A stretch of 64,000 nucleotides of DNA, from contig JAISGK010000078.1 of assembly GCA_031263155.1 (NCBI GenBank), positions 1-64,000 on the forward strand, in the 5' to 3' direction. The stretch's first letter is position 1; every line of letters begins with the position of its first letter. A model generated the notes under the pieces. That model saw only the letters and a list, made by a program, of their open reading frames with translations, did no database searches and was not told the origin of the DNA. The DNA comes from Clostridiales bacterium (GTDB lineage Bacteria > Bacillota > Clostridia > Lachnospirales > WQUN01). A program made the position numbers and the translations under genes. This document shows positions 1 to 3,836 of this stretch, piece by piece.

Positions 1-1115
1 TTATCAAACAATTGGAATCCGTGGACGTATTTAGGCGTTTGATTTGCTTTGCGAATACCGCCTTTTAGGATAGTCGCCTTATGCAGTTGCCTGTTATGGC
101 GGCGCACAGCTTTTTGTTGATAGATACAATCAAGCGGTTTCGCCATTGGACTGTCTGTTATGCACCTCGCGTCAACGGCATGTGATTTTTGCAGTCTCGC
201 TGTTTCGCGGCGGCATTTTGTGATATATCCATGAGTTTCCATGACCTCAATGCCTGGGAACAACCTGCGTACACGCCCCATTAAGGTCTTGCGCGTGATC
301 CCCATAAACGTCGCGTCTCTCATTGAGTACGGTTTACGGAGTGTTTCTGGCAGAAGCAGTTTGCCCTCGTGATATTTCGTGTGGCAGCGCCTACAGAGCG
401 TAATAAGGTTATTTGGAGCGTTGCCGCCTGTCTTGCGGCTTTCGAGATGGTGAACGTGGAATTTTACTTTTACGCCATTCTGTGTATCCCCATGTTTACT
501 GCCGCATACCCTGCATCTATATCCATCGCGGTGGAATATGTACTGTCGAGTATTGTACTCGTCGTACTGCTCGCCCAGTTGATAGTCAGCGCCTACGGGC
601 AGTGGTTTACCTTCAAGCATTGCTTTGAGACGTTGAGTGTCAAACTCCGCTGTCTCAATAATTATCTTTGTGATTGGAAGCAAATTGCATACCGTTTTGA
701 TTAACTGGATATGCGTATTGATTTTTTGTTCGATTGAGGGCGCAAGCCATCCTTTGTGTTTAGCGCGAATACGGTTATTAAATCTTGGAGCACGATATCT
801 GGTTTTACGGTTGCGGCGCGCTCTGCGGAACTCGCGGCGCGCAGACAGATTTTTTGTTACGTCCGCGCGTAGTTTACATTCTGCGGCGTAGAGTTCTTTT
901 GTTTCCGTTGTCGTTGAGACACCAACTGTTTTGCTGCCGGCGTCGATGCCGAGTGTAACAGGCTGGGTTATGTCTTCAGTGTCATAAGCCAGCTGGATTG
1001 TGAATGGTGTCCGGCGAACTACTTTAGCCTGCCCGCGTTCAAGCAGACGCCTAACGCGTCCATGCCTGGCCGTCGGCATAATGGGTATTCCTTCTTTGTT
1101 TAATACATATACCAT
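1..1115 (-). CDS. iscB: IscB RNA-guided nuclease (partial, 3' end off the window)
   Basis: OMEGA-family nickase/nuclease of IS200/IS605-type elements, the ancestor group of Cas9. I translated 371 codons from ATG 1113-1115 with GAGGT five bases upstream; the frame is still open at base 1. Domains in order: N-terminal PLMP-type segment (IPIMP at residues 10-14, then RVRRLLERGQAKVV), RuvC-I with GIDAGSK (Asp58), arginine-rich bridge helix at about 92-115, RuvC-II IIIETAEF (Glu154), HNH domain with CRVC (201-204), HVHH (220-223) and CRRC (241-244), RuvC-III HAVDA (His312, Asp315), and the start of the C-terminal target-interaction region. All catalytic residues are present, so the visible part looks functional. 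Family length is usually 400-500 residues, so only the C-terminus should be missing. No TnpA transposase is visible. Several spurious plus-strand frames overlap it. Confidence 0.93.
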   Translation of the reverse strand, partial: MVYVLNKEGIPIMPTARHGRVRRLLERGQAKVVRRTPFTIQLAYDTEDITQPVTLGIDAGSKTVGVSTTTETKELYAAECKLRADVTKNLSARREFRRARRNRKTRYRAPRFNNRIRAKHKGWLAPSIEQKINTHIQLIKTVCNLLPITKIIIETAEFDTQRLKAMLEGKPLPVGADYQLGEQYDEYNTRQYIFHRDGYRCRVCGSKHGDTQNGVKVKFHVHHLESRKTGGNAPNNLITLCRRCHTKYHEGKLLLPETLRKPYSMRDATFMGITRKTLMGRVRRLFPGIEVMETHGYITKCRRETARLQKSHAVDARCITDSPMAKPLDCIYQQKAVRRHNRQLHKATILKGGIRKANQTPKYVHGFQLFD

Positions 1116-1400
1116 TGTGTACCTCTATCTGTGGCGTGAGCCGCGTAACGCGCCGTTTCGCTCTGGAAGTTATGGCTGACGGCGTTGATTGCCCTTACCC
1201 AATGTTGCCCGAGGTTTCAAACGCAAGTAACACCGTTCCTACCCATCAGAACTTTTAATTACTTGCCGCAGCGCCGCAGACTAGGACATACATCTGCGGG
1301 TGCCTATACATTCTCAGGTAACGTAGTCCCTATGGGACTGAGGGTAGTCAGCGAGGGTTTTGTATGGAAGCTGTTGCTTCCTTTCAAGCTCCTAGCTTTA
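1116..1400 (-). ncRNA. HEARO / omega-RNA-like leader of IscB
   Basis: IscB proteins use a structured RNA encoded directly upstream of their gene (the HEARO motif), with the guide at the RNA 5' end. This 285-base stretch upstream of iscB lacks a convincing gene and is rich in hairpins. Read on the minus strand these are GGAAGC/GCTTCC (about 1367-1382), AGTCCC/GGGACT nested in a CTCAG/CTGAG stem (about 1313-1342), and CGCAGA/TCTGCG (about 1274-1298). A GGCG...CGCC stem lies close to the start codon (about 1134-1156). Position, size and structure fit. The exact 5' boundary, and therefore the guide, is uncertain: about 1390-1410. No covariance search was possible. Confidence 0.6.
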
Positions 1401-1401
1401 G

Positions 1402-3441
1402 CTATGGGGTCGTTGATATATTTCCTCCCGCTGTTATATCTTTGGTTTTTAATATTGCTATGTTTCTTGCCTCGTCTTCATAGACAATGCTGAATGTGTC
1501 GCGCATAAGCTGCACATTGGCCGCCGTAAAATTGCTCGTAGTCAGAAAATCCGAATCTATAAGGATGTAAGAAATGTTGTTTTCTTTTAACATTTTAAGC
1601 AGGGTGTCGGGGTCATCTTCGTTTATGATGTCGTTGAATATCTTTTCGCGCCCATAGGTATCATAGCCTCCTGACCACGCGTAGTAAGGCCAGCCAAAAA
1701 ACTCCATACGCCCGGCGAAGAACACGTCATGCGCGCCATGCCAATATGAGAAGAAAAGATCGTCAGGCTCAGTGTTATCTTTTATCCATGTTTGTAGATC
1801 GCTGTTTTGTGTGATAACGGCGCTTTTCATCTCGCCGTTAAGGCTGCCTATGGTAAACGTATCCACAACCCCGGTGATCGTGATAAAAAAGATGATAAAC
1901 AAGCCAGTAATAACTGACAGCGTGTCCCGTTTGCTCGTATCGCTTGGCTTTATAAGTTCGACGACACAGTAGGCGGCAAAAATATTCAGCATTGCTATGG
2001 AGATCATGAGGAACTTGTGGTTAACGGTTATATCCGTCGTTAACGATACAGTGAACGTGATGATAAATGGCATGGCGAACATCACGAAATAGACGGCAAA
2101 TTTTTTTAGGTTCATCAGCAAGCCAAACACGCAGCAGATAAGGGTGATGCCTGTAAGAGCGAGAATGTATGCCCATACGCCTTGCAATGATTTGTCTTCC
2201 GCGATAAAGCCCCACTGAAAGGATGGACGCGCAAGCTCGACGCCGGCGGCGAAGAAATTTGTCTCCACCCGCGCAAGTACATAGGCTATGGCGGCGGTAA
2301 TGGCGTATTCTAGCTTATGCAACGAGAACAAGCCCAACACGGCAAGCATCGCCATAAGAGCGATTAGCGCCGATCCATGAAAGTAGGCCAAGCCGCCGGC
2401 CAGCAGACCAAGGCCAACGGCGCGCCGCCAACTCTCAGGCAGCCATGCCTCGCGCGAAAAAAAGAGGCGGCAGCGCGGCGCGTAAAACAGCGGCAGCATG
2501 ATCAGTACGCCTATAAGCGCTATGTTTATACCCAGCGCGAGATGCCGCTGGTTGGTATATACATTTAGATTCCACAGCCCCCAGCCCTCGTTGGGGGTAT
2601 AGTCTAAAAACGCGTCGGGCTTTATTATTCTATTTATCAATTCCATAAAGGTGGTCGGCAGGGGTTCAATCAAATAGCGTATGCCGCTAAACGAGCTGCG
2701 AAACAAAAAGAACAAAACAGTAAGCATGCCCACCGCGCGCCGGTTGGTGATGATAACCGCCAATACGTACAACAACATAAGCGTGCCGATAAGCAGTAAT
2801 ATACTCACAGCGTTGAAGCCGATTACCATATCAATGCCCAAATACTCCAGGCAGCCTATGAAGAACTGATACATGAAGTGATAACGAATTGTACCGTCTG
2901 GAAAGTGCGGAAACTGCGTTGGGAAATTTTGCCCCAGCGAGAACGAGCGTATGAGCGCGGTGTGAACGGAAAAGTCGCTGAACACCGTATAGCCCATGTG
3001 ATATACGCCGCCTTTTATAAAAAACGTGTAGATCATGAGCCAGATAATGAGCGCGCATACGGGCGCAAAAAAGATATACAGCCAAATGTTATATCTAAAT
3101 GTCACGATAAAATCATTTATGAGATTTTTAAGCGTAATGAACCTTGGTTTTGTCAGCGCGTATAGGGCGATAATGGCGGCCGACACCGCCAAGCCTCCAA
3201 TACAGCCAAAGAACATGGGGTCGTCCGCGTTACGGAAAATATACGCGCCGACATACATAACCCACCCTACAACTATGATGCCTACGCAAAATGACGCAGG
3301 CACAACGACAAACCATAAAGGAAACGGGATCTTGCCGTTGGGAGAGGCCAGATAATCGAACCAAAATAGGCGGCAAAAGCAGAATTGTATAACGACGTAC
3401 CCCGCGCACACGCACAGTAGTAATAACAGAATCGCAAGCAT
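1402..3441 (-). CDS. Polytopic membrane protein, GT-C glycosyltransferase-like
   Basis: About 679 residues with a dozen or more hydrophobic segments from the N-terminus to about residue 520, then a soluble C-terminal region of about 140 residues. An acidic motif, FSDFSVHTALIRS, in the first large loop followed by FPHFPDGTIRYHF resembles the catalytic loop of GT-C glycosyltransferases that use lipid-linked sugars. The tail (DLFFSYWHGAHDVFFAGR and ISYILIDSDF) resembles the exposed domains of YfhO/dolichyl-mannosyltransferase-like proteins. Substrate unknown. I start at ATG 3439-3441 because GGGAG lies nine bases upstream; a GTG 24 bases earlier has no ribosome site. The stop codon lies at the presumed edge of the IscB element, so the last residues (GGNISTTP) may come from the insertion. 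Confidence 0.75.
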   Translation of the reverse strand: MLAILLLLLCVCAGYVVIQFCFCRLFWFDYLASPNGKIPFPLWFVVVPASFCVGIIVVGWVMYVGAYIFRNADDPMFFGCIGGLAVSAAIIALYALTKPRFITLKNLINDFIVTFRYNIWLYIFFAPVCALIIWLMIYTFFIKGGVYHMGYTVFSDFSVHTALIRSFSLGQNFPTQFPHFPDGTIRYHFMYQFFIGCLEYLGIDMVIGFNAVSILLLIGTLMLLYVLAVIITNRRAVGMLTVLFFLFRSSFSGIRYLIEPLPTTFMELINRIIKPDAFLDYTPNEGWGLWNLNVYTNQRHLALGINIALIGVLIMLPLFYAPRCRLFFSREAWLPESWRRAVGLGLLAGGLAYFHGSALIALMAMLAVLGLFSLHKLEYAITAAIAYVLARVETNFFAAGVELARPSFQWGFIAEDKSLQGVWAYILALTGITLICCVFGLLMNLKKFAVYFVMFAMPFIITFTVSLTTDITVNHKFLMISIAMLNIFAAYCVVELIKPSDTSKRDTLSVITGLFIIFFITITGVVDTFTIGSLNGEMKSAVITQNSDLQTWIKDNTEPDDLFFSYWHGAHDVFFAGRMEFFGWPYYAWSGGYDTYGREKIFNDIINEDDPDTLLKMLKENNISYILIDSDFLTTSNFTAANVQLMRDTFSIVYEDEARNIAILKTKDITAGGNISTTP

Positions 3442-3836
3442 TTGTTCGATCTCCCAAAATATCACAATTTTTCATATTATGTGAAAAATTCGCGTGAATT
3501 ATTAACTTATTTTGTGTTGTTTTGTAAATTCATCAAACGGCGCGACCGCCAATATTGGCCCCCCTACATATTTGGGGCGCAGAGGGCCAACCTTGCTAAA
3601 GGCTCGCGAATAGGCTACAGTCTAACATACATCCGCTGTTAATGAGTAGATCCATTTTGTGGAATACGGAGCGGCTCAATCACCGCCCCATTATAACATA
3701 ACACGGATGTGGCATAAATGTAATGTTTAAAAAGAGCAATTCTATGTTGCTTTTTACCATGGAAACAATTAATATAAAAAACGGGGATATCTGAACAATC
3801 GCGGGGCAATATATTTTAAGTAAGGGAGGTTATTTT
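3442..3836. other. Intergenic region with hairpins
   Basis: Divergent region between the membrane protein and the secreted protein, with no supported gene. TTGGCC 3555-3560 and GGGCCAA 3584-3590 can pair. TAAAAAGAGCAA 3728-3739 pairs with TTGCTTTTTA 3747-3756 and has a T- or A-run on either strand, so it could terminate or attenuate transcription. GGGAGG at about 3825 is the ribosome site of the next gene. I could not assign a promoter. Confidence 0.4.

Follow-up and report, generated by a model that had tools for sequence, protein, structure and literature searches.

At the end of the DNA stretch analyzed here, a window of 64,000 nucleotides from a Clostridiales bacterium, lies the 5' part of an IscB/HEARO mobile element that appears to have parted two genes of a host operon. 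The window belongs to a contig (C53) of a 2.75-Mb assembly with 110 contigs, and its base 1 is the contig end. All features of the locus are encoded on the minus strand:

1..1417 (-), IscB/HEARO element, 5' part, delimited by the common 5' boundary of nine copies
3..1115 (-), iscB, first 371 of 439 codons, from profile matches, with the remaining ORF taken from the copies on contigs C103 and C45
1184..1417 (-), HEARO/omega RNA scaffold (RF02033, 116.3 bits, E 2.5e-23)
1402..1404 (-), TAG in the element, now ending the upstream host ORF, from frame analysis
1402..3465 (-), upstream host gene for a membrane protein (687 aa when the reading extends into the element)
1418..1433 (-), putative guide segment of about 16 nt, sized by analogy with known IscB omega RNAs
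1424..1429 (-), GGGAGG, ribosome-binding site for the host gene downstream, now parted from its ATG

Base 1, where contig C53 ends, is a break of the assembly inside a repeat family; as seen in other copies, about 217 nt more of the element follow beyond this base. The minus-strand frame 3..1115 is open over 371 codons without a stop up to base 1. Its product scores 315.2 bits with the guided_IscB profile NF040563 (cut-off 175), for which the full-length copy on C103 reaches 309.1 bits, shows the Pfam domains RRXRR and HNH (PF01844, 36.9 bits versus a cut-off of 21.4) and has solved IscB chains as best PDB matches (E 2e-41). The RuvC residues D58, E154, H312 and D315 are invariant among IscB relatives, and the HNH residues C201/C204, H222/H223 and C241/C244 are all present, corroborating the intact-looking IscB of the preliminary description. 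Completion of the protein beyond base 1 succeeded by two routes, with neither stop nor frameshift: the C103 copy from the same genome holds a single uninterrupted IscB ORF of 439 aa, and contigs C53 and C45 share an exact 119-bp overlap resulting in a joined ORF of likewise 439 aa. An unusual target-interaction domain, as had been suspected for the window protein, is not supported, as its C-terminus is merely absent through the contig end and the corresponding part of the full-length copy aligns with ordinary IscB relatives at 50–60% overall identity. Between the window copy and C103, the one pair of copies used for this calculation, 37 synonymous and 16 non-synonymous changes correspond to a dN/dS of 0.117, which points to purifying selection on the IscB protein. 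An AlphaFold model built from a 7-sequence alignment (mean pLDDT 46.7) was left out of the reasoning. The nickase of this class is IsrB, which is without HNH. Since RuvC and HNH are both complete in the window IscB, a double-strand nuclease is expected; hence, of the earlier assignment as a functional OMEGA-class nickase, the OMEGA/IscB class is retained on the strength of NF040563 and RF02033, whereas the nickase has to be given up. The window protein is an ordinary, new IscB/HEARO nuclease.

Directly upstream of iscB and on the same strand, the covariance search proposed earlier for the omega-RNA-like leader identified a HEARO RNA well above the RF02033 gathering score of 83, with a match spanning the whole model (1–211). 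The first base of the element, 1417, coincides with position 1 of RF02033. It is A in the window copy and G in every other copy examined, with G in 28 of 28 copies of a relative from the same family (Clostridiales Nc350_bin65, a 7.7-Mb MAG, hereafter G015). While the 5' end is constant, reading (G/A)TCAAC/T..., the preceding flanks are unrelated between copies. Treating the G before TCAAC as a target base was dropped, as giving this base to the element restores the upstream stops. The segment 1418..1433, placed by established IscB biology, is presumably the flank-derived guide; a guide at the 5' end of the omega RNA, as initially assumed, fits this biology as well as the differing flanks. Within this putative guide lies the Shine-Dalgarno (SD) sequence of the split gene, GGGAGG, with an anti-SD pairing of -10.3 kcal/mol. 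On the other side of the boundary, the ORF of the upstream host protein, which matched no Pfam or NCBIfam family, reads four extra codons (STTP) into the element before the TAG. A 5'-end stop within 5–7 codons, in the frame of the ATGA-overlapping upstream gene, was found in 6 of 7 lineages. In scans for promoters and terminators, signals stayed at chance level.

The source genome harbors the element in multiple copies, with at least nine 5' ends and ten 3' ends, mostly 91–100% identical and mostly located at contig ends. The iscB of the C60 copy is broken and read in two frames, and the C101 copy bears a small deletion near its end. Besides, contigs C29 (L058, about 197 bp) and C40 (L059, about 115 bp) carry MITE-like deletion derivatives keeping both ends, the latter located at a start codon. 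In G015, 110 HEARO RNAs were detected, about 63 of them above the gathering score, but few intact IscB ORFs, and most copies are therefore RNA-only or broken off at contig ends; a number of them (among L102–L131 and L191–L228) are minimal versions of about 112–130 nt. We infer that one IscB could act in trans on many guides in this genome. Across the phylum, 28 of 399 sampled genomes encode an IscB above the NF040563 cut-off.

In the source genome, the 3' end of the element (...TG) is followed by ATGA in nine of ten cases and by ATGG in the remaining one, and ATGA also follows nearly all of about 42 element 3' ends in G015. Therefore, ATGA (TCAT on the other strand) is presumed to represent the target-adjacent motif (TAM), as read from the insertion junctions. 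HEARO elements reportedly integrate next to ATGA or GTGA, according to the original HEARO paper. Target-site duplications were not seen, and joining the flanks gives clean sites. Eight of the ten source-genome 3' ends abut the native start codon of a gene, encoding a response regulator, a U32 peptidase, an amine-oxidase-like flavoprotein, a diacylglycerol kinase, DNA polymerase III delta, an AMP-binding enzyme, a HisRS-like (HisZ) protein and a periplasmic binding protein. Compared with a background of about 3.6%, the share of ATGA words in the window that a simple ORF/SD call marks as gene starts, this corresponds to a binomial P of about 1e-10. Placement at start codons was also found in other genomes, at yhbY, a RapZ-like gene, a D12 methylase gene, the gene for ribosome recycling factor, a solute-binding lipoprotein gene of Caldicoprobacter oshimai and an ABC permease gene of Athalassotoga saccharophila. 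In G015, about 6 of 42 ends, counted by eye, lie at gene starts (P 0.004) and most insertions elsewhere, and copies L261, L264, L266 and L276 are likewise away from gene starts. Consequently, start codons are not the recognized target as such, and a universal start-codon target was rejected in view of the G015 insertions.

The native arrangement at the window copy is suggested by five relatives, where no element is present and the ortholog of the upstream gene has as its next gene the ortholog of the flavoprotein gene adjoining the C60 copy; this gene starts at the same ATG, with an SD-like sequence 5–10 nt ahead of it. Of five testable cases, four regain the upstream stop within ATGA when the flanks are joined: the window 5' flank with the C60 ATGA, as TGA and provided that base 1417 belongs to the element, and likewise C40, L271 and L267, whereas L262 gives a stop at +8. 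In A. saccharophila, joining yields TTTTTAGGAGGGAAGA(G)ATGAAG, which is a textbook ribosome-binding site. For relatives of G015, DNA-level empty sites are too diverged for a base-exact junction, while the yicC start was confirmed. Regarding the 3' partner of the window copy, gene order and the restored stop indicate C60, whereas the assembly overlap indicates C45. As native neighbor, the U32 peptidase gene of C45 was rejected, being absent beside the ortholog in relatives, five of which have the C60 gene there. The 119-bp overlap plausibly reflects an edge of the assembly graph, since record names of G015 contain k119, and the conflict could stem from a chimeric assembly or from recombination between copies.

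The last 75 nt or so of the element consist of an SD-like GAAAGGAGG, an outer stem, an internal loop (TTCCT / T(A/T)TCC) and an inner stem, after which ATGA or GTGA follows at a distance of about 6–12 nt. This SD-hairpin-ATGA 3' end is found in viral contigs as well as in Clostridia and Thermotogae, and the stem sequences vary across lineages yet still pair, as judged from single folds, the MAFFT alignment of 3' ends being too poorly registered for pair counting. IscB elements with the same 3' end were noticed on IMG/VR viral contigs (L311–L322), some of them by eye at gene starts (e.g., L314, L317, and L320). When placed automatically, the SD-like sequence of 9 of 16 sampled elements pairs with the anti-SD at -7 to -12.6 kcal/mol; in G015 and L172, GAAAGGAG is present but was folded into the outer stem by this procedure, whereas L165, L167 and L173 are without SD and L190 has a weak one. 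Two Bacteroidetes copies, whose ends are unmapped, have no SD nearby. Coding alone does not explain the SD-like word, as it occurs in varying frames of IscB or beyond its ORF. In copies from Oribacterium sp. NK2B42 (L274 and L276), an SD-like sequence is located after the terminal hairpin, next to ATGA.

In agreement with the preliminary description, a Y1 TnpA is not encoded on the window contig. Moreover, no TnpA-bearing copy of the element was found, nor a TnpA with ends matching the IscB element in the source genome or G015. The TnpAs of both genomes belong to other IS605-like elements, which were dismissed as drivers, their ends being unrelated except for a short shared hairpin. In another genome (L239 on G382:C22), a more distant IscB of 439–444 aa overlaps a Y1 TnpA gene that directly follows it, making this locus a candidate autonomous IscB-TnpA element.

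The protein, the RNA, the copies and their ends, the ATGA target, the start-codon enrichment and the SD-hairpin-ATG architecture are probably best explained by an IscB mobile element of the HEARO/OMEGA class with ends apparently fitted to insertion between SD and ATG, such that the downstream gene could still be translated. The steps from its expression through guide use and cleavage to translational rescue, and its mobilization in trans, might then be as follows. The omega RNA would be read from host transcription starting in host sequence, so that its first 16 nt or so would be flank sequence serving as the guide. IscB and this RNA would cut the empty site, i.e., a guide match followed by the TAM ATGA, favoring keeping or re-copying of the element, which might be mobilized in trans by some TnpA. 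As ATGA is often a start codon, commonly within a 4-nt stop-start overlap, the element lands between SD and ATG. There, the in-frame stop within 5–7 codons at the 5' end would close the upstream gene, while at the 3' end the SD directly before the hairpin would, on folding, be brought to roughly 8–12 nt from the host ATG, which would make the downstream gene translatable. We infer that the element ends keep the split operon translated. A wider generalization, namely that HEARO/IscB elements are adapted to operon stop-start junctions and silence neither gene, so that they could sit even in essential operons, is put forward tentatively, with the case for it falling slightly short of even; accordingly read, the target ATGA would be overlapping stop and start, for which the 5' end supplies a stop and the 3' end a hairpin-positioned SD.

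Less probable, albeit deserving serious consideration, is an ordinary IscB element having ATGA as its only specificity, with start-codon placement as the outcome of purifying selection, which removes in-gene insertions, and the SD-like sequence as a by-product of an end structure recognized by TnpA. The many G015 insertions at ATGA everywhere, mostly outside start codons, would be as expected, and so would the absence or weakness of the SD in 4 of 16 ends; moreover, the TTCCTCCC strand of the hairpin could serve as another pairing partner for GGAGG. However, this strand is kept where the SD is absent, the SD-like word is maintained in different frames and outside the ORF, the Oribacterium copies have the SD elsewhere, after the hairpin, and the hairpin-folded spacing is close to ideal in most elements, all of which argues against this reading.

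Two further explanations concern the present role of the window copy. That it is a decayed or domesticated remnant, no longer mobile and with an IscB kept by drift or for another role, appears unlikely: although a TnpA with matching ends is missing from the genome and several sister copies are frameshifted or reduced, the ORF is intact with all catalytic residues and a low dN/dS, and the high identity among copies (93–100%) implies recent spread. Very improbable is a regulatory function in which omega RNAs with SD-derived guides take IscB to other translation starts, thereby affecting expression. Guides are indeed drawn from SD regions and many copies in G015 are RNA-only, but with the nuclease residues intact matching sites would be cut, and genomes differ in their insertion sites, without any conserved locus being seen.

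If the proposed fit to SD-ATG insertion holds true, it would explain the build-up of IscB inside essential operons as well as the ribosome-binding sites in guides. IscB nucleases are the class from which Cas9 descends, and there is still debate on how their elements are maintained in genomes; a further outcome is the prediction of a 439-aa nuclease having ATGA as its target motif. A literature search on the SD/start-codon aspect of HEARO found no description, which is weak evidence of novelty, most subscription papers lying outside its coverage.

Compared with OgeuIscB and other solved IscBs (PDB 7utn, 7xht, 9liq, and 11hr), the window family shares the PLMP N-terminus, the HNH-split RuvC, RRXRR, the C-terminal target-interaction region and the upstream HEARO/omega RNA with flank-derived guide. 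It differs in size (439 aa versus about 495 aa in OgeuIscB), in not encoding TnpA alongside and in its TAM ATGA being presumed from insertion junctions. The names IscB and HEARO nuclease have been united, TnpA neighbors being rare (PMC9755519), and the full-length RF02033 covariance match upstream of the ORF and the TnpA-poor surroundings are in common with HEARO nucleases (PMC9755519). With IS200/IS605 elements (TnpA Y1 and TnpB), the window element shares subterminal hairpins, the lack of target duplication and a fixed 4-nt motif at one end, but it is without tnpA, and its ends differ from those of the TnpA elements in its genome. Finally, PLMP, RuvC and omega RNA are common to the IsrB nickase and the window IscB, whereas HNH is missing from the former and complete in the latter.
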